NCBI RefSeq assembly: GCF_003330845.1
Contig: NZ_CP026121.1
Coordinates: 3,887,501-3,951,500, forward strand
Direction: 5' to 3'
Length of the DNA stretch: 64,000 bases
From: Streptomyces sp. Go-475
Lineage (GTDB): Bacteria; Actinomycetota; Actinomycetes; Streptomycetales; Streptomycetaceae
In this document: piece after piece, positions 40,288 to 48,302 of the stretch
How positions within the stretch are numbered: position 1 is the stretch's first letter
Layout of the letters: the number at the start of each line of letters is the position of its first letter
Translations under genes and position numbers: made by a program
Notes under the pieces: generated by a model
Told to the model about the DNA's origin: nothing
The model's input: only the letters and a program-made list of their open reading frames with translations
Database searches by the model: none

Positions 40288-41037
40288 TCACGGCCCATGC
40301 CCCCATTCCCCCTCGACCAACGGCCCGTACGAGGTGATCACCGCCGCGGCCTCCGCCTGGCACAGCGCGCGGATCTTGCGTTCGTTGCGTCCGTAGCCGA
40401 CGAACCCCACACCGGCCCGTGCGGCCGCCTGCACGTCCGTTGCCGTGTCGCCGATCATCACCGCGTCGTCGGGGCCGAGGCCGAGGACGCGCAGTGCGCG
40501 AAAGAGGACGTCGGGGTGTGGCTTCATCAGTCCCGGATCGTCGGCGCGTCGGCCCTGAACCGTGGTGAAGTACGAGAGCAGTCCGCGCCGTTCGAGATAC
40601 GCCTCGGCCGCCAGCGCAGAGTTGTTCGTGACCACGGCCAGAGCCACTCCCCGGCTGTCCAGCTTGCGGAGGAGGGCGTCCGCGTCCGGGGTGTGCCACT
40701 CGTGGTGTGCGGCGACGAGTTCGGCGGCGGCGAGTTCACCGGCCGTGACCCGTTCCTCCAGGAGGCGCAGCAGCCCGCCCAGGCCGGGCGACCCTGCCCG
40801 CAGCGCTCGATGGACCGCGCGCAGGACCACATGCGGATCCTTGTGGGTCCGCTCGGCCGCACTGAGGAGGTGAGAGGCACCGAAGGCCTGGATCTCGCGT
40901 CGGAGGTCGTCGGCGACCGGCTGCGACCTGCCCTCGGGGAAGAGCCGACAGATCGGCCCGTCGAAGTCGAAGAGCACACAGCGGGCCCCGGCCAGCACTC
41001 TGCGTACGTCCGTGAACCTGTCGACGCCGACCGCCAT
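40288..41037 (-). CDS. HAD-family phosphatase (DFDGPICRLF type), paralog 1
   Basis: A 249-residue HAD phosphatase. Motif I is VLFDFDGPICRLF with the nucleophile Asp, motif II VVTNNSALAAEAYL, the lysine motif KPHPDVLFRAL and motif IV VMIGDTATDVQAAA. The DxDGPICRLF sequence is shared with two further HADs at 43686-44429 and 45356-46081; these three are paralogs. It lies 34 bp downstream of the APH-like kinase. The substrate is unknown, although a phosphate monoester is likely. Confidence 0.92.
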   Translation of the reverse strand: MAVGVDRFTDVRRVLAGARCVLFDFDGPICRLFPEGRSQPVADDLRREIQAFGASHLLSAAERTHKDPHVVLRAVHRALRAGSPGLGGLLRLLEERVTAGELAAAELVAAHHEWHTPDADALLRKLDSRGVALAVVTNNSALAAEAYLERRGLLSYFTTVQGRRADDPGLMKPHPDVLFRALRVLGLGPDDAVMIGDTATDVQAAARAGVGFVGYGRNERKIRALCQAEAAAVITSYGPLVEGEWGHGP

Positions 41038-41071
41038 GTCGTATCCGCTCGCCTTCCCCGCTCGGTCCGTC

Positions 41072-42322
41072 TCAGTTCGGCACGCCCGTCGGCTCCCTGC
41101 GCCCCGCGGAGACCGGACGGGGTTGCCGGGCTCGATGCCGCCGCCTTGGCGAACGCCGGGCTATGTCTTCCTGATCGGGCTCATCACCACGGGGCCCGTC
41201 CGCAGCCGACCGAACACGCCATTCCTGGTCTGCGGCATGCCACCGGCGCAGTGCTTCACGGACCTCGTTCTCGTCCCGGGGTTCACCGGTGAGTCCCAGC
41301 GGCTGCCAGGCCCGGTGCAGCGCACGGCACACCCGGTCGGCCGCCTCGGACAGTTCGCGTTCCGCGGGACGCTCGGACAGGTACAGCGCGGCCCGCATCA
41401 CGTCCGGGTAGAGCGACTGGACGTACTCGAAGTCGCGGTAGACGCGCAGGCCTCGGTCCAGGTCGGCGGTCATCTCGCCGTGTCCGGCGCAGCGCATCGC
41501 CTGGGCCCACAGGTCGATCATCGCCTCGCGCTCCTCCTTGGCGTAGTCCATGCGGACCAGATGCGTCGCGAGGTCGTGCAACGGGTCGCCGTAGAGGGCG
41601 AGTTCCCAGTCGATCACCGCCAGACGCTCGCCCTCCTCTGCGGGCAGGACCAGCACATTGGCCCGGTGGACGTCCGTGTGCAACAGGGCGAAGGGACGCC
41701 GGGCCGGGGGAGGAACGATGTTCAGAAAGCGTTCGACGGCATCACGGGGAATGCCCACGGCATCGAACAGCATGCCGAAACGCGGCCGATTGGCCTGGTC
41801 CACCCGCTGCTCGGTGAAGCCGGCCAGCCACCTCAGGAACCCTTCGCTGTCGCCGTCGTCCGGCCAGTCCGCAGGCCGCGGGGGGAGAGCGCACCCGGGC
41901 ACCCCGGCGAGTTCCGCGAAGAACTCGGCGAGCGCGGACAGCCGGTCAGGGCCGATCCGCTGCCCCGAGGGGGCCACCTCGGCGAGGGTAGGGCCCGGCA
42001 GGTACTCGTGCAGGGACCACTCTCCGAAGTCCGCCAGGCAGCGCGGAACATGACGCACCCGGCCGTCGAGCACCCTCAGCAGCTCGGACTCCCGTCGCCA
42101 GAGCCGTGGCACTACTTCGACCGCCTGCATGGGCGTACGGAACTTGGCGAGAACGTCTCCCGAACGCTGCCGCAGCAGACATGCCAGCGGAGTCCCCAGG
42201 GGCATGACGAGGTTCGTGTTGTGATGGCCGGAAACCACCTCCCCGTCGGGGCTGCGGCGCCTTGCCTCCGCGAGTCGGCGTACCAACGAATGGAACGCTC
42301 TGCGGTGCAGAGGGGACGACAT
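41072..42322 (-). CDS. Aminoglycoside-phosphotransferase-like kinase
   Basis: A 416-residue APH/choline-kinase-fold protein. The catalytic loop is LLHTDVHRANVLVL (HxDxxxxN), and the metal-binding Asp is in VIDWELALYGDPLHDLATHL. The last about 60 residues are Arg-rich and disordered. It lies between a GntR regulator and a HAD phosphatase, so a kinase/phosphatase pair on a shared small metabolite is plausible. Aminoglycoside resistance is possible but not indicated by sequence alone. Confidence 0.88.
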   Translation of the reverse strand: MSSPLHRRAFHSLVRRLAEARRRSPDGEVVSGHHNTNLVMPLGTPLACLLRQRSGDVLAKFRTPMQAVEVVPRLWRRESELLRVLDGRVRHVPRCLADFGEWSLHEYLPGPTLAEVAPSGQRIGPDRLSALAEFFAELAGVPGCALPPRPADWPDDGDSEGFLRWLAGFTEQRVDQANRPRFGMLFDAVGIPRDAVERFLNIVPPPARRPFALLHTDVHRANVLVLPAEEGERLAVIDWELALYGDPLHDLATHLVRMDYAKEEREAMIDLWAQAMRCAGHGEMTADLDRGLRVYRDFEYVQSLYPDVMRAALYLSERPAERELSEAADRVCRALHRAWQPLGLTGEPRDENEVREALRRWHAADQEWRVRSAADGPRGDEPDQEDIARRSPRRRHRARQPRPVSAGRREPTGVPN

Positions 42323-42407
42323 GAGCGCACAGAGTAGTACGACGACCGGCGTGAATCACCGCGTGCCACTATCTGGACGCCCCCTTCACACAGTGGGCCG
42401 GAACGTC

Positions 42408-43295
42408 TCACTTCTCTCGACGTGCCGTTGAACCCAGAACGTTCCAAGTCGCCTGGAACCAGTCACGCAGGTCTTCGAAGAACGCCACATCGCGGGCATC
42501 CACGGACCCGCTGTGGAAGTAGTGGAGCTTCGAGAAGGCGCCGATGACATCAATCGCCTTCACCTGCGTCTCCTCGTCGTCGTCGAGTGTGATGACGGTC
42601 TTCTCCGGCATGTACATCCCGTACAGCAGGTGCTGCCTGTTGAGGATGTACAGCTTGAAGGGAGGCGTCAGCGGTACACGCTTGACCTCCAAGCGGGCGT
42701 CGACACCACGCTCCCTGAGCTGGGCGACCAAATCGCTCATCTCCCTGGCGTACCGGCGCGCCATCGCCCGCCAACGCTGGTGGATCCGTGGGTCGTCCGG
42801 GTCCTCCGCCTGGGGATGGGCCAGCGACTGCTCCTCACCGGGCACCAGCATGCGGATGTGCAGGGAAGTCGGCGCAGCCCTCTTCTCGACGATGATGCGT
42901 TCGGCCTGTCTCTTGAGATGGCCGTACAGGGTTTCGGAGGTCAACGAGAAGACATCGATGCTCACCTCGCCCGTCTCCTGAAAGGCCCGCTCGATCCACG
43001 ATCCGAGGGCAGGCCGGGCGGCCGCCTGGTCCACGACCCTCTTCCGCGGCCCGGAAGGCTGGTCCAGAACCCGGCTGCCGCTGCCCTGACGGACGTCGAG
43101 CAGGCCTTCGTCGGCGAGCTGCCCGAGAACGCGCCGGAGTGTCTCCCTCGAAACGCCGAGGTCCGCGGCCAGCTGCCGTTGGGCCGGCAGCATGCTGCCG
43201 GCCGGGTACGTCTCGTCCGCGATGCGGTTGCGCAGGAGCTCCGCCACCTGCAAGAACCTACGGCCGGCGCCTTCCCTCTTCGCTGAGCTGGTCAT
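42408..43295 (-). CDS. GntR-type regulator, paralog 0 (divergent member)
   Basis: A 295-residue regulator. The winged helix is at residues about 14-75 (FLQVAELLRNRIADETYPAG then QRQLAADLGVSRETLRRVLG). The C-terminal domain shares its plan with the three other regulators in this locus: VSIDVFSLTSETLYGHLKRQ, then RIIVEKRA, LHIRMLVPGEEQS, LTPPFKLYILNRQHLLYGMY and FFEDLRDWFQATWN. Sequence divergence is greater than among the other three. It is divergent from a mini membrane protein, with two oppositely oriented operator-like copies between them. Confidence 0.9.
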   Translation of the reverse strand: MTSSAKREGAGRRFLQVAELLRNRIADETYPAGSMLPAQRQLAADLGVSRETLRRVLGQLADEGLLDVRQGSGSRVLDQPSGPRKRVVDQAAARPALGSWIERAFQETGEVSIDVFSLTSETLYGHLKRQAERIIVEKRAAPTSLHIRMLVPGEEQSLAHPQAEDPDDPRIHQRWRAMARRYAREMSDLVAQLRERGVDARLEVKRVPLTPPFKLYILNRQHLLYGMYMPEKTVITLDDDEETQVKAIDVIGAFSKLHYFHSGSVDARDVAFFEDLRDWFQATWNVLGSTARREK

Positions 43296-43362
43296 GCCCA
43301 GAACCTACCGCCCTCCAACCGGAAGCACACCAACCTCAGTCCAGTTTCACCCAACCAATGAA

Positions 43363-43436
43363 CGACCAATTGGACCGGTGATTAAGGATCTACACATGCG
43401 GCTAGACCACTTTTAGGCAACCAGTCCAATTGGTTG
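43363..43436. promoter_or_regulatory. Two inverted copies of a 17-bp operator-like motif
   Basis: The motif ACC(R)GTCCAATTGGT(Y)G occurs at 43420-43436 on the plus strand and at 43363-43379 on the minus strand, with 15 of 17 bases identical. Each contains the palindromic core CCAATTGG, and CAACCA-N7-TGGTTG surrounds the plus copy. One copy is near each of the divergent genes (mini membrane protein and GntR paralog 0). Confidence 0.75.
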
Positions 43437-43479
43437 GCAGGTGGCGGCCCAGCGGCCGACGGCCCACAAGGGGGACATC

Positions 43480-43671
43480 GTGGTGATAGCGCCGGCTCTG
43501 CAGTTCGTGGGTGTGGTGCTCGTGCTCGGCTTCGAGCAGCTCGTGCAGTGGAAGCTGGGGGCGATGGGGATGGTCGCCCTCTTCCTTCTGGCCGTCGGTC
43601 TCAAGGCACGGAACTCGACGTGCGTGTCCCTCGGCGCCGTGATCCTGCTGATCCTCATGACGAAGCCCTGA
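43480..43671 (+). CDS. Mini membrane protein, paralog A
   Basis: A 63-residue protein with two to three hydrophobic helices around a conserved FEQLVQWK segment. It is a paralog of the 62-residue protein at 47107-47295: both have FEQLVQWK near residue 17, a (M/I)xxLxLLxVGxKA(K/R) helix, and a last helix ending in LLI. I chose the GTG (VVIAPALQFVG) behind AAGGGGG because it gives the same length and the same leader layout as the paralog; an earlier GTG at 43441 would add a polar extension. Divergent from GntR paralog 0. Confidence 0.8.
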   Translation: MVIAPALQFVGVVLVLGFEQLVQWKLGAMGMVALFLLAVGLKARNSTCVSLGAVILLILMTKP

Positions 43672-43685
43672 GCCGCGGCCTGGTC

Positions 43686-44429
43686 TCAGCCCCGCAGAAG
43701 CTGCAGCAACGGCTCCAGCGAGGGCAGCACGACTTCTGCCCCGGCTTCCCGCAGCGGTTCGGCCGTCCGGTCGCTGCGTGCGTAGCCCAGGAACGGTACG
43801 CCCGCGTGCTTCGCGGCCAGGTAGTCGGTAGGAGTGTCGCCGATCATCAGGGCGGACGACGGGGCGGCTCCCATGGCACTCAGCGCCCGGTTCAAGGAGT
43901 GCGGATCCGGCTTGAGCAGCTGAAGGTCGCTCGTCCGGCCGTAGACGTGCGGGGAGAAGCACGGGAGGAGACCACGGCTGGTGAGGTACTGACGGATCAC
44001 CCGCGGTGAGTTGTTGCTGGCGACGGCCAGGCGGGCACCGACAGCTGTCCAGGTGCGGATCAGCGGGTCCGCGTACGCGGTCGGCATGGCGGTGACGGCG
44101 GCCCGCGACTCTTCCTGGGTGAGACGTTTCTCCAGCTCCGTGACCAGGTCACTGCCGGGATGCCGGCCATCCACGGCGCGCAGAACCATGTGGGGGTCGA
44201 GCGAGTCACGCTCGTCCCCGGTGAGGAGGCCGTGCAGGCCGCGGCCCTCCAGCCAGGACACCAGGTCGCGCGCCACACGCTCCGCCGAGTGGCGCGCGAA
44301 CAGCCGGCAGATGGGCCCGTCGAAGTCCCAGAGCACGACATGGGCGCGTCTGATCAGATCGCGGAGTTCATACGGATCACCTTCGGTCGCGATCCTCACC
44401 GAACCAGTCTTCGTCGTATCAGAAGTCAC
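43686..44429 (-). CDS. HAD-family phosphatase, paralog 2
   Basis: A 247-residue HAD. Motif I is VVLWDFDGPICRLFARH, motif II VASNNSPRVIRQYL, the lysine motif KPDPHSLNRAL and motif IV MIGDTPTDYLAAK. The GTG start shares its G with the last base of the regulator's TAG stop (TAGTG), so it is tightly coupled to the GntR paralog 1 gene. The coupling means the regulator and the phosphatase are made together. Confidence 0.92.
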   Translation of the reverse strand: MTSDTTKTGSVRIATEGDPYELRDLIRRAHVVLWDFDGPICRLFARHSAERVARDLVSWLEGRGLHGLLTGDERDSLDPHMVLRAVDGRHPGSDLVTELEKRLTQEESRAAVTAMPTAYADPLIRTWTAVGARLAVASNNSPRVIRQYLTSRGLLPCFSPHVYGRTSDLQLLKPDPHSLNRALSAMGAAPSSALMIGDTPTDYLAAKHAGVPFLGYARSDRTAEPLREAGAEVVLPSLEPLLQLLRG

Positions 44430-45301
44430 TAGGAGAGTGTCAGGTCCGTCGTGATGGTTTCCCAGAGGGCGTCGAACCACTTCTGGGATTCCTGCACGAA
44501 CGCCGCGTCCTGCCGGCCCGACCGCTTCACGAAGGAGAAGAGGAGGGACTGGGAGCCCAGGACGTCGTACATGTCCAGGGTCTGGCTGCCCCACTCCTCC
44601 GCGCGCCTGGTCAGCATGTAGTAACCGATCAGCGCCTCCTCCTGGTTGAGCAGGTACAGCTTCACGGGCGGGGTGAAGGGCAGCGCCCGGAACGTGACAT
44701 GGACGTCGATGCCGTGCGTCGAGCGCAGCGCCAGCAGGTTGTGCTGGAGCACCTGCCCCTGGGCGTTGCGCATCGCCAGCCAGCGCTGGTGGACCGGGTT
44801 GCCGTCACCGTGCGCCTCCACGGGCACAGGGAAGGCCAGTTCGATGTCCCGCGACGGGACGAGGATGCGGACGTCGATCGACTCGGGGCGGATCCGGCCC
44901 TCGTGGATCAGCCGGAGCGGCTCGCCGAGGGCCACCATCAGCGTCTCCGCGGTGTGGCAGACGACGTCGACGCGGACCCGCGGGACCGAGAACGCCTCCG
45001 TCAGCCGGGGCGCCAGCCCCACCATCGTCGGCTGCGGCTCGCCCCGGGCCGGAGCCGGCGCGGCGATCCGCGGCGGGCTGCCCTTGCTGACATTGGTGAG
45101 GAGTCCGTCCTCCTGGAGTACTCGCAGGGCCTGGCGCACCGCACCGCGTTCCACGCCGAACTCCTCCGCCAGTTCGGCCTGGGTGGGCAGGCGGTCCCCC
45201 GGCCTGAGCTCACCGGCACGGATACGCTCCCGCAGGTGGTCGGCGATCTCCTGGGACGAGAGCCTTCCGCTGCCGTTCACTGCCACGTTCTCCTGAGTCA
45301 C
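44429..45301 (-). CDS. GntR-type regulator, paralog 1
   Basis: A 290-residue regulator from the GTG that gives VTQENVAVNGSGRLSSQEIA; a further GTG two codons upstream is possible. The N-terminal GntR winged helix has LRERIRAGELRPGDRLPTQA then LAEEFGVERGAVRQALRVLQ. A linker (NVSKGSPPRIAAPAP) leads to the C-terminal domain with VCHTAETLMVALGEPLRLIH, ILVPSRDIEL, HGIDVHVTFRALPFTPPVKL and WFDALWETITTDLTLS. It is nearly identical to paralog 2. The HAD gene is coupled to its stop. Confidence 0.93.
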   Translation of the reverse strand: MTQENVAVNGSGRLSSQEIADHLRERIRAGELRPGDRLPTQAELAEEFGVERGAVRQALRVLQEDGLLTNVSKGSPPRIAAPAPARGEPQPTMVGLAPRLTEAFSVPRVRVDVVCHTAETLMVALGEPLRLIHEGRIRPESIDVRILVPSRDIELAFPVPVEAHGDGNPVHQRWLAMRNAQGQVLQHNLLALRSTHGIDVHVTFRALPFTPPVKLYLLNQEEALIGYYMLTRRAEEWGSQTLDMYDVLGSQSLLFSFVKRSGRQDAAFVQESQKWFDALWETITTDLTLS

Positions 45302-45355
45302 GAGCACACCGTACGACCGATGTCACCTGCGCTGTGGCGTTCTCACCAGCACTGG

Positions 45356-46081
45356 CTACAGCGGACATGTGATCGCGACCAGGACTTCCTCCAGTGAGCG
45401 AACGACGTGCGACGCCTGGACGCCCACGTGCGTCAGGTGGCGCAGCTTCTGATCGTCGCGCGCGTAGCCCAGGAACGGGACACCCAGCTCCTGTGCCGCC
45501 TGGTAGTCCGTCCCGGCATCGCCCAGCATCAGCGCCTGGGACGGGTCCGCACCCAGGGCATCGAGGGCCTGGAGCAGGGAGTGCGGGTGGGGCTTCATCT
45601 GGCTGAGGTTCCTGGTGCGCCCGTATATGCAGGGGAAGCAGCCCTCGAGGTGCCGGGTCTCGATGTAGGAGGCCGCCGCGAGCGCGGAGTTGTTGGTCGT
45701 GATGGCGAACCTCGCACCCAGTCCCGACCATGTTCTGATCAGCGGATCGGCGTACGGCGTGGGCAGCGCGGTGGGAACGGCGAGGAGTTCATGCTGGGTG
45801 AGCCAGTCCTCGAGCCGAGTGATCAGGTCGCTGTCCGGATGCCGTTTATCCACCTCCAGCAGTACGGCCTGGGGGTCGAGGTAGAAGCCTTCCTCCTCTG
45901 TGAGCAGCCCGCCCAGCCCCTGCCGTCTGATCAGCTGCACCAGCTCCCGGGCCACCTCGGACGCCGGGTGACCCGCGAACAGGCGGCAGATCGGCCCGTC
46001 CAGGTCCCAGAGGATGTAACGAGCCGGAGCGAGCAGTCTCCGCAGTTCTTCGGTCGACGCCGTCTCCCCGCGAGAAGTCAC
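45356..46081 (-). CDS. HAD-family phosphatase, paralog 3
   Basis: A 241-residue HAD. Motif I is YILWDLDGPICRLFAGH, motif II ITTNNSALAAASYI, the lysine motif KPHPHSLLQAL and motif IV LMLGDAGTDYQAAQ. Its GTG start overlaps the stop of GntR paralog 2 by 4 bp (GTGA). Closest to HAD paralog 2 in both sequence and context; the two-gene block appears to be a tandem duplicate. Confidence 0.92.
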   Translation of the reverse strand: MTSRGETASTEELRRLLAPARYILWDLDGPICRLFAGHPASEVARELVQLIRRQGLGGLLTEEEGFYLDPQAVLLEVDKRHPDSDLITRLEDWLTQHELLAVPTALPTPYADPLIRTWSGLGARFAITTNNSALAAASYIETRHLEGCFPCIYGRTRNLSQMKPHPHSLLQALDALGADPSQALMLGDAGTDYQAAQELGVPFLGYARDDQKLRHLTHVGVQASHVVRSLEEVLVAITCPL

Positions 46082-46953
46082 CAGGACAGTGTCAGGTCCG
46101 TCGTGATGGTTTCCCAGAGGGCGTCGAACCACTTCTGGGTTTCCTCCACAAGCCGGGCATCGCGGTGTCCGGCCTGCTTCAGGAACGAGAAGAGGAGGGA
46201 CTTCGAGCCCAGCGCGTCGTACATGTCCAGGGTCCGGCTCCCCCACTCCTCTTCTCGCCGGGTCAGCATGTAGTACCCCAACAGCGCCTCCTGGCCGTTG
46301 AGTACGTACAGCTTCATGGGCGGGGTGAAGGGCAGCGCCCGGAACGTGACGTGGACGTCGATGCCGTGCGTGGAGCGCAGCGTCAGCAGGTTGTGTCTGA
46401 GGACCCGGAGCTGGGCGTTGCGCATCTCCAGCCATCGCTGGTGCACCGGGTCGTCCTCCCCCTGCTCCTCGACGAGGCGGGGAAATGCCAGGTTGATGTG
46501 CCGCGAGGGGAGCAGGAGGCGCAGGTCGATCGACTCGGGGCGGCTGCGATTCTCGTGGATACGGCGCAGTGGTTCTCCGAGGGCCACCATCAGCGTCTCC
46601 GACGTGTGGCAGACGACGTCGACGCGGACGCGCGGGACCGAGAACGCCTCCGTCAGGCGCGGCGCAAGCCCCACCATGGTCGGCTGCGGCTCGCCCCGGG
46701 CCGGAGCCGGCGCGGCGATCCGCGGCGGGCTGCCCTTGCTGACGTTGGTGAGGAGTCCGTCCTCCTGGAGTGCCCGCAGGGCCTGGCGGACGGCGCCGCG
46801 TTCCACGCCGAACTGCTCCGCGAGCTCGGCCTGGGTGGGCAGGCGGTCGCCCGGCTTGAGCTCACCCGTGCGGATACGTTCCCGCAGGTGGTCGGCGATC
46901 TCCTGGGACGAGAGCCTTCTGCTGCCGTTCACTGCCACGTTCTCCTGGGTCAC
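46078..46953 (-). CDS. GntR-type regulator, paralog 2
   Basis: A 291-residue regulator. The conserved start VTQENVAVNGSRRLSSQEIA supports the GTG at 46953 rather than the TTG six bases upstream. TAGCGT, a good -10 hexamer, ends 6 bp before this GTG, so the mRNA is probably leaderless. Domains are as in paralog 1; most differences lie in the C-terminal domain (for example the RRIHENRSRPESIDLRLLLP region). It is divergent from the mini membrane protein at 47107. Confidence 0.92.
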   Translation of the reverse strand: MTQENVAVNGSRRLSSQEIADHLRERIRTGELKPGDRLPTQAELAEQFGVERGAVRQALRALQEDGLLTNVSKGSPPRIAAPAPARGEPQPTMVGLAPRLTEAFSVPRVRVDVVCHTSETLMVALGEPLRRIHENRSRPESIDLRLLLPSRHINLAFPRLVEEQGEDDPVHQRWLEMRNAQLRVLRHNLLTLRSTHGIDVHVTFRALPFTPPMKLYVLNGQEALLGYYMLTRREEEWGSRTLDMYDALGSKSLLFSFLKQAGHRDARLVEETQKWFDALWETITTDLTLSW

Positions 46954-46959
46954 GACCAA

Positions 46960-47092
46960 ACGCTACAACCCTGATCCATCTGGCGGGAGTTGCTTGAAAG
47001 TTGTTTATAACTAGGGACCAAGTGGGGACAACTCAAGCATAGTTGGTTGCCAACTTCTCGGAGTTGGCGGAAGTTTTGCTTCCGAACTTCCG
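46960..47092. promoter_or_regulatory. Divergent promoter region with operator palindrome and a 5'-UTR hairpin
   Basis: On the minus strand, TAGCGT at 46965-46960 is followed after 6 bp by the GntR paralog 2 GTG. A palindrome AGTTGG-N3-CCAACT lies at 47041-47055, 52 bp before the mini-protein start; 15 of 16 bases of AGTTGGTYGCCAACTT are identical to a site at 48287-48302. A second perfect inverted repeat, CGGAAGTT-N9-AACTTCCG (47068-47092), ends just before the GAAGGGGGA ribosome binding site and could gate translation. Confidence 0.7.
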
Positions 47093-47106
47093 AAGGGGGA
47101 ACCCCG

Positions 47107-47295
47107 ATGCCTGCCCTCGCTCTCCTCTCCGCCACCTTCGTCGTCCTCTTCGAGCAGCTCGTCCAGTGGAAGTACGGCCCGGCCGGCATCGTCGGCCTGC
47201 TCCTTCTCACGGTGGGCATCAAGGCCAAGAGCCCGGCCGTCAGCTCCGCGGGAGCGGTCGTGCTCGCGCTGCTGATCACAGGGCCCGCCCGGTAG
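47107..47295 (+). CDS. Mini membrane protein, paralog B
   Basis: A 62-residue protein (MPALALLSATFVVLFEQLVQ) with three hydrophobic segments and a conserved FEQLVQWKYGPAG segment. It is preceded by GAAGGGGGA. Its paralog is at 43480-43671. The charged W-K segment between helices would be exposed at the membrane. The length, position and divergent regulator suggest a small membrane effector, channel-like or regulatory; a toxin-like role is possible but unproven. It ends 1 bp before the convergent GntR paralog 3 stop. Confidence 0.85.
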   Translation: MPALALLSATFVVLFEQLVQWKYGPAGIVGLLLLTVGIKAKSPAVSSAGAVVLALLITGPAR

Positions 47296-47296
47296 G

Positions 47297-48199
47297 TCAG
47301 CTCGTGAGCACCAGCTCCGAACTGATCGTCTCCCACAATGCGTTGAACCACAGGTGGGACTGCTCCACGAACGTCGTGTCACGCAGGCCCGGCCCCTGCT
47401 GGAAGGAGAACAGCATCGACTGGGTGCCCTGGGCGTCGTACATCTCCAGGTGCTCGTGGTCGATCTGGGCCTCCCGGCGCGTCAGCGTGTAGTACGCGAA
47501 CAGCGCCTCCGTGCCGTTGAGCAGGTACAGCTTCACCGGCGGGGTGAAGGGCAGCGCCCGGAACGTCACCCGGACGTCGATGCCGTGCGTGGCGCGCAGC
47601 GCCAGCAGGTTGTGCTGGAGCACCTGCCCCTGCGCGTTGCGCATCGCCAGCCAGCGGTCGTGCACCCAGTCGTCGTCGCGCCCCTCGACCGGCACCGGGA
47701 AGGCGAGGTCGATGTCCCGGCTCGGCAGCAGGACCCGGACGTCGACCTTGGCCGGTTTCAGCCGTCCGGCGTGGATCTGGCGCAGCGGCTCACCGATGGC
47801 CAGCGTGAGGGAGATGGAGGTCAGGCACACGGCGTCGATCTCGACGTGCTCCGCCGCGAAGGCCGCCGCGATCCGGGGCGCGAGGGCCACCGTCGTGGGC
47901 AGGGGCGGGGCTTCCGGGCCGGTCAGCGCCCCGGCGGGATCCGGGGCCACGGTCGCCGGGCTGCCCTTGGACACGTTGGTGAGCAACTGCTCGGACTGCA
48001 GGATGCGCAGCGCCTGGCGCACCGCCCCGCGTTCGACACCGAACTCCTGTGCCAGCTGCGCCTGGGTGGGCATGCGTTCACCCGGCCGCAGTGCACCCGA
48101 CCTGATCCGGGCGCGCAGCTCGTCGGCCACCTCGTGATGTGTCCGCTGTGGCCGTAGCGACCTCTTCCGTCCATTGACGGAGGCGTGTTCCGGGTCCAC
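47297..48199 (-). CDS. GntR-type regulator, paralog 3
   Basis: A 300-residue regulator. Winged helix: ELRARIRSGALRPGERMPTQ then LAQEFGVERGAVRQALRILQ. The C-terminal domain is clearly homologous to paralogs 1 and 2 (RVLLPSRDIDLAFPVPVEGR, HGIDVRVTFRALPFTPPVKL, FNALWETISSELVLTS). The start is a GTG 6 bp after TAGCGT, the same leaderless arrangement as paralog 2. It has no coupled HAD gene. Confidence 0.92.
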   Translation of the reverse strand: MDPEHASVNGRKRSLRPQRTHHEVADELRARIRSGALRPGERMPTQAQLAQEFGVERGAVRQALRILQSEQLLTNVSKGSPATVAPDPAGALTGPEAPPLPTTVALAPRIAAAFAAEHVEIDAVCLTSISLTLAIGEPLRQIHAGRLKPAKVDVRVLLPSRDIDLAFPVPVEGRDDDWVHDRWLAMRNAQGQVLQHNLLALRATHGIDVRVTFRALPFTPPVKLYLLNGTEALFAYYTLTRREAQIDHEHLEMYDAQGTQSMLFSFQQGPGLRDTTFVEQSHLWFNALWETISSELVLTS

Positions 48200-48205
48200 A
48201 CCTCA

Positions 48206-48302
48206 ACGCTACAACTTCCCGCCATCTTTCGGCAGTTCACGGAAAGGTGGTTATGAGACGCTTCCAAACGGAGATAAGAAGAGTGAAGTTGGTCGCCAAC
48301 TT
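48206..48302. promoter_or_regulatory. GntR paralog 3 promoter and upstream operator
   Basis: The minus strand carries TAGCGT (48211-48206), 6 bp before the GTG. CTACAAC, CCATCT and GAAAG occur in the same order and spacing as upstream of GntR paralog 2, so the promoters are duplicates. AAGTTGG-N3-CCAACTT at 48286-48302 is a perfect 7-bp palindrome. No mini membrane gene follows on the plus strand; about 160 bp further to 48462 hold no gene I can support. Confidence 0.7.

Follow-up and report, generated by a model that had tools for sequence, protein, structure and literature searches.

In the 64,000-nucleotide stretch of Streptomyces sp. Go-475 analyzed here (the window; the genome is a single contig of 8.57 Mb, and the proteins of the window have their relatives in Streptomyces), positions 40288..48302 carry a compact cluster of four GntR-type regulators, three HAD-superfamily phosphatases, one APH-type small-molecule kinase and two short hydrophobic proteins, called mini below. 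All ten of these genes, described in an earlier reading of the sequence (the original prediction), were confirmed within the 8 kb. We concluded that GntR, HAD, APH and mini form a conserved Streptomyces unit that likely acts as a small-molecule switch. A GntR regulator with a predicted sensor domain of phospholipase D (PLD) fold would repress its own operon and the divergent mini gene through an operator-like dyad. The HAD, produced together with the regulator, would strip phosphate from the ligand and the APH would put phosphate onto it, the two enzymes jointly setting the level of phosphorylated ligand. The switched regulator would then leave the dyad, and mini would be the output in the membrane. 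To this chain as a whole we give slightly less than an even chance, and we rate its autoregulatory part higher.

Conservation was measured in an even, unbiased draw of 61 Streptomyces genomes, which was identical for the GntR, HAD and mini searches. The GntR type was present in 35 genomes, the HAD type in 37 and mini in 27. GntR and HAD occurred together in 34 genomes, GntR alone in one (G028), HAD alone in three (G006, G015 and G017) and neither in 23 (Fisher P 1.5e-12; kinship among the genomes makes this value too small, while the pattern is plain). All 27 genomes with mini belonged to the GntR-positive set, and none of the 42 mini places was more than 1.6 kb away from one of the GntR type. 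HAD lay directly 3' of GntR on the same strand in 30/35 genomes, and 16 of the 58 HAD places were elsewhere. The GntR type was found in 137/197 genomes and 4/6 genera of the order, and in 44/394 genomes and 9/137 genera of the class, 15 of these 44 genomes being outside the order.

Gene arrangement was followed in 121 loci selected for presence of the GntR domain: the window locus, 20 loci of which 15 were from outside the order and 5 from Streptomyces, 20 further Streptomyces loci, and 80 named Streptomyces records, which were the best 80 of 438. Some genomes are represented twice (e.g. by L109 and L188). HAD was present in every locus but L159. The 119 GntR-to-HAD junctions overlapped by one base in 84 cases and by four bases in 28 (112/119 in total), with neither overlap in the remaining 7. 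The original prediction had looked to co-occurrence of the two families and to coupled pairs in other genomes as the mark of a system, and both were found; in the 61-genome draw, mini occurred only beside these regulators. All four genes were present in 93 of the 96 mini-bearing loci. Exactly one copy of each gene was found in L105, L106, L119 and L121, and three GntR copies in 38 loci; the collection suggests one GntR, one HAD, one APH and one mini as the minimal unit.

In the window, GntR3 (46078-46959, minus strand; start codon uncertain), HAD3 (45356-46081, minus; 241 aa), GntR2 (44429-45307, minus; 292 aa) and HAD2 (43686-44429, minus; 247 aa) lie on the same strand with gaps of -4, +48 and -1 bases by coordinates, and therefore likely form a single operon led by GntR3. 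The start of HAD3 shares four bases with the GntR3 stop (GTGA) and that of HAD2 one base with the GntR2 stop (TAGTG), as had been noticed before, although the fixed stoichiometry once read from these overlaps does not follow from them. Such a double GntR-HAD tandem is rare, occurring in 2/120 other loci, L096 and L201, the latter with its two pairs on opposite strands. The mini2 gene (47107-47295, plus; 62 aa, hydrophobic) is divergent from GntR3, and mini1 (43480-43671, plus; GTG start at 43480 or 43483; 62-63 aa and hydrophobic by family alignment and hydropathy) is divergent from GntR1 (42408-43295, minus). The locus is, however, irregular rather than the uniform repeated unit that had been proposed: GntR1 is followed by APH (41072-42322, minus; 416 aa) and then, 3' of it, by HAD1 (40288-41037, minus; 249 aa), and GntR4 (47297-48199, minus; 300 aa) lacks a divergent mini in this genome.

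All four regulators contain the GntR winged helix PF00392 with 63-70 bits against a cut-off of 27. Their identity to GntR2 is 85% for GntR3, 64% for GntR4 and 33% for GntR1, and the C-terminal domains belong to one family (E 2.8e-82 for GntR4 and 3e-23 for GntR1). The whole genome holds four copies of this C-terminal family, all at the locus; a fifth row had E 0.24. Beyond matches of helix-turn-helix (HTH) type, the four regulators gave no Pfam match at E<=1, and thus none to the described effector domains of FCD, UTRA or MocR type. GntR subfamilies include HutC/UTRA, FadR, MocR, YtrA and AraR. The window regulators share with them the N-terminal GntR winged helix above the Pfam cut-off, but differ in a C-terminal domain without a Pfam effector domain and of another predicted fold. 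In the predicted structure of GntR2, residues about 90-292 form a PLD fold that resembles the sensor domain of TrmB, and the closest sensor-domain entry was 2f5t, named sugar-binding domain. The full-length GntR model gave low TM-scores in Foldseek (query-normalised 0.21-0.33), and the fold claim rests on the comparison that yielded 2f5t. TrmB and TrmBL2, whose C-terminal domain has the same fold, are archaeal regulators of a different HTH family, and we know of no HAD, APH or mini partner for them.

The PLD catalytic motif HxKxxxxD was present in only 3/268 regulator domains, while K-x-Y-x-x-N, in which the lysine is kept, was present in 244/268. R147, R175 and R207 are nearly invariant and K216 is invariant, and because of these residues we infer that the ligand of the regulator is probably anionic.

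The enzymes keep their catalytic residues. HAD1, HAD2 and HAD3 matched PF00702 with E 5e-23, 3.8e-16 and 1.6e-14, and all three contain D[FL]DGPICRLF (DFDGPICRLF in HAD1), in agreement with the common DxDGPICRLF motif reported at first. Identity to HAD2 is 54% for HAD3 and 44% for HAD1. The DxDG motif, the Lys loop and GDxxxD were found by loose patterns in 141/141 stop-to-stop frames and in the alignment of the three window proteins. APH matched PF01636 with E 2.2e-20 and has HxDxxxxN and DWE motifs; the HxDxxxxN loop is present in the window protein and in 104/104 frames. The HAD family of this genome has three members at the locus, one far off (E 6e-26) and three weak rows with E 4e-4 to 3e-3. 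The fourth HAD relative, far from the locus (L001:7975-8709; G000:C1:2600013-2600702), has lost key residues, with GFDGP in place of DxDGP and no GDxxxD, and in several Streptomyces of the 61-genome draw further HAD copies stand alone within open frames of great length. The tandem copies at 43686-46959 have diverged unequally, GntR2 and GntR3 being 85% identical versus 54% for the coupled HAD2 and HAD3, a hint that gene conversion took place or that a HAD was replaced.

The candidate operator is the exact dyad AGTTGG-N3-CCAACT; the 96 mini loci, with 1.87 Mb of sequence, contain 169 occurrences of it. With gene starts estimated from the domain start, 167 occurrences were upstream of GntR, 122 of those were also upstream of mini, and 2 were elsewhere. 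Controls with scrambled half-sites (n=59) gave a mean of 0.017 and a maximum of 1 occurrence in the same loci. In the genome of the window the exact dyad is found twice, both times at the locus: AGTTGG-TTG-CCAACT at 47041-47055, with its centre 59 bp before the mini2 ATG and 89 bp before GntR3, and AGTTGG-TCG-CCAACT at 48287-48301, with its centre 95 bp before GntR4. Its placement was special also among the 61 genomes, where a mini gene lay 2.5 kb or less from 37/51 sites when the three weakest of the 42 mini places were excluded. Its arms keep a fixed sequence, and scrambled versions are nearly absent; this favours a protein-binding site over an RNA hairpin, although a role in RNA is conceivable.

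The mini proteins are predicted to be membrane proteins. At E<=1e-3, mini2 had 430 relatives (clusters), and no Pfam family matched the mini proteins above its cut-off. Glu-Gln in the first hydrophobic stretch was found as EQ in 130/174 mini frames. The median dN/dS was 0.44 over 2558 pairs, orthologues and paralogues mixed, among 91 copies of exactly 62 codons. The analysis ties a 62-residue hydrophobic family to one regulator family, and gives a widespread GntR group with a C-terminal domain outside Pfam a hypothesis on its function and a candidate operator. On a plasmid of S. canus (L209:6369-6563), a 64-aa hydrophobic mini-like protein with a FGVVGLALLGVG stretch is divergent from GntR; it is below detection by the mini profile.

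Several results weigh against the proposed switch. The exact dyad is present in 121/174 divergent mini/GntR pairs and absent in 53/174. Over the 61 genomes it is not over-represented, with 51 exact dyads versus 45 for the reversed-pattern control. The original prediction, that each mini gene is divergent from a regulator across a palindrome, applied to both pairs, but the GntR1/mini1 region has at 43364-43433 a different palindrome, around CCAATTGG, as a candidate paralogue-specific operator. Terminator-like hairpins overlap the dyads. The surroundings of the dyads showed no sigma-70-like promoter, and repression is therefore read from the position of the dyad only. Outside the order, GntR was followed by HAD in 15/15 loci, and neither mini nor a window-type APH was found in these loci; the kinase and mini are therefore not part of the shared GntR-HAD core. 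Among the four plasmid loci examined, the GntR of a Nocardia plasmid (L207) has no annotated HAD beside it. A metabolite-sensing switch with a phosphatase had been one of the readings offered in the original prediction, and it is also the mechanism that we prefer, by inference; to it are added here the predicted PLD-like sensor fold, the relatives on mobile elements and plasmids, and the confinement of the exact dyad to the locus in this genome.

The alternative that survives best, though we consider it unlikely, is an ordinary catabolic or resistance locus. GntR would then govern a sugar-phosphate phosphatase of generic kind together with a kinase of the aminoglycoside type, and the repeats would reflect routine growth of paralogues. 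Both HAD and APH proteins belong to large families that act on many substrates, and the sugar-binding name of entry 2f5t would fit such a locus. However, neither a transporter nor a catabolic enzyme was found between HAD1 and GntR4 by Pfam or in the gene list, mini would be left unexplained, and GntR-HAD also sits in the control regions of actinomycete integrative and conjugative elements (AICEs).

The GntR-HAD core occurs often on pSAM2-type AICEs. Among 19 genomes chosen for loci with GntR-HAD only, 10 had the pair within 6 kb of RepSA. In L104, GntR-HAD is at the regulator position of a backbone in common with L211, an AICE of the window genome (RepSA 83%, a 109-aa protein 85%, FtsK 71%). 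In sister AICEs the same slot is filled by GntR-UTRA or XRE-PLD regulators, with a Nudix gene in 3/5. The gene caller overlooked some genes, and the lists of neighbours are therefore partial. The regulator-HAD core is related to the AICE control cassette, in which a Nudix hydrolase can occupy the HAD position. In pSAM2, as described in PMC3218068, the repressor KorSA is of GntR type, and conjugal immunity is given by the Nudix protein Pif through a mechanism called unknown there.

These relations raise a second alternative, slightly less probable than an ordinary locus: the cluster could be a chromosomal immunity module, related to the regulator-immunity cassettes of AICEs but settled, which blocks or silences incoming AICEs. 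The 10/19 genomes, the regulator slot of L104 and the immunity given by Pif would agree with it. There was no sign, however, that the cluster lowers the AICE load. RepSA genes numbered 2.19 per genome with the mini cluster (n=27) versus 1.53 without it (n=34), a trend in the opposite direction (P 0.23), and the window genome has five. In the 61-genome draw, RepSA was no more than 8 kb away from only 3/75 GntR-type places (this count and the comparison of RepSA numbers leave out the RepSA rows with <=156.8 bits, which were the 20 weakest).

A tree of 52 regulator domains also argues against immunity. One branch (95/94) united the four window regulators with 25 further cluster rows and three rows from plasmids, and had no AICE-type rows. 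A second branch (91/85, not starred) held six AICE-labelled rows, four other GntR-HAD-only rows and one plasmid row; nine distant regulators of cluster loci, however, were outside both. Several AICE-type loci (L091, L103, L104 and L123) are not in the tree, and L089 is labelled AICE without RepSA nearby. The branches being separate, the cluster is not an AICE form that was copied recently, as far as the loci covered by the tree can show. The possibility of a recently captured AICE remnant was rejected as well: no AICE genes (RepSA and others) were found around the window cluster, the nearest RepSA is about 0.3 Mb away, and a GNAT gene was a neighbour in 77/80 named stretches, so that the cluster keeps its chromosomal neighbour (TetR was found in 51/80). 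Phage relatives were rejected too: the C-terminal domain of the L104 regulator, the only query used there, had no match in a phage collection, and PHROGs matches were confined to HTH regions or generic HAD.

A little less probable again is a toxin-like module, in which mini damages the membrane, GntR silences it, and HAD and APH modify the trigger molecule. The small hydrophobic protein was near regulators at every one of its places, and its EQ is frequent. On the other hand, PADLOC gave no match for the mini proteins, and the dN/dS of mini indicates constraint, not toxicity. As to a possible defence role, which the original prediction had also named, the PADLOC models of known anti-phage systems gave weak matches in the HTH region alone for the regulators (E about 0.001-0.01) and none for the HADs or APH. 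A local duplication accident without any system, for which only the rarity of the double GntR-HAD tandem speaks, was rejected as extremely improbable, since the GntR type is present in 35/61 drawn Streptomyces genomes and in 9/137 genera of the class, with HAD beside it, and co-occurrence and adjacency are far above the chance level at which the original prediction would have given up the idea of a system.

The switch that we prefer was then compared with described systems. KorSA-Pif resembles the GntR-HAD of AICEs in placing GntR beside a phosphohydrolase, an FtsK-type transfer gene and the 109-118-aa gene of sister elements, but its hydrolase is Nudix instead of HAD (pSAM2 is taken here from its published description). 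The AICE GntR regulators of the window genome carry UTRA, whereas those of the window locus carry the PLD-like domain and have no AICE genes around them, and no UTRA or Nudix match was found by Pfam among the window cluster proteins. The XRE-Nudix-HD hydrolase clusters listed for AICEs in PMC3218068 differ in combining an HTH and a hydrolase of other families; AICE parts are also listed in PMC11706625 and PMC9513070. No paper on the GntR-HAD-APH-mini unit was found in a literature search to which subscription papers were mostly outside, and the parts of PMC7159879 and PMC13118837 that could be seen contain nothing on it. We filed the unit as a new form of regulator-plus-phosphohydrolase control cassette, not as a member of KorSA-Pif.

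A second regulator-hydrolase pair was observed, in which a Nudix gene comes after that of an XRE regulator whose C-terminal domain is predicted to have a PLD fold (L215:11953-13259; L216-L245); this XRE-PLD type is present in 42/61 Streptomyces genomes. When the PLD-like domains of the two regulator types, GntR and XRE, were compared as profiles, E was 0.0023 with a probability of 12.7%, so that direct homology of the profiles is suggestive at most. It is conceivable, though we doubt it about as much as an ordinary locus, that GntR-HAD, XRE-PLD-Nudix and KorSA-Pif are interchangeable versions of one actinobacterial logic, in which an inactive-PLD-type (or UTRA) repressor reads a phosphorylated, possibly nucleotide-like signal that is destroyed by the partner phosphohydrolase. 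If so, the conjugal immunity of Pif would work through hydrolysis of the signal, and the cluster on the Streptomyces chromosome would be a resident counterpart in which APH, its own kinase, makes the signal and a membrane protein serves as the output. HAD in the slot equivalent to Pif, and predicted PLD-fold sensors on two unrelated HTH regulators each with a phosphohydrolase, make a shared phosphorylated signal a testable candidate.

Some further observations concern relatives of the cluster. Two genomes outside the order encode, 3' of GntR-HAD, a protein of APH fold that is shorter, with 264 aa (L099:10427-11221 and L100:10378-11172); the L099 protein matches PF01636, and both were unrecognised by the window APH in phmmer. 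On the Nocardia plasmid (L207:8761-10593), a glycosyltransferase family 2 gene is 3' of GntR in place of HAD. An Abi-like protein (PF07751; L088:10448-11116) is directly 3' of HAD in an AICE-type GntR-HAD pair, and a NERD-domain protein (L211:5476-6096) adjoins the GntR-UTRA regulator of the AICE of the window genome. L212 and L214 (at about 3.62 and 5.86 Mb of the genome) are near-identical AICE regulator regions in one genome, with 99% identity for GntR, 99% for Nudix and 100% for the 118-aa protein, and the FtsK-type gene of L212 was called as two pieces.

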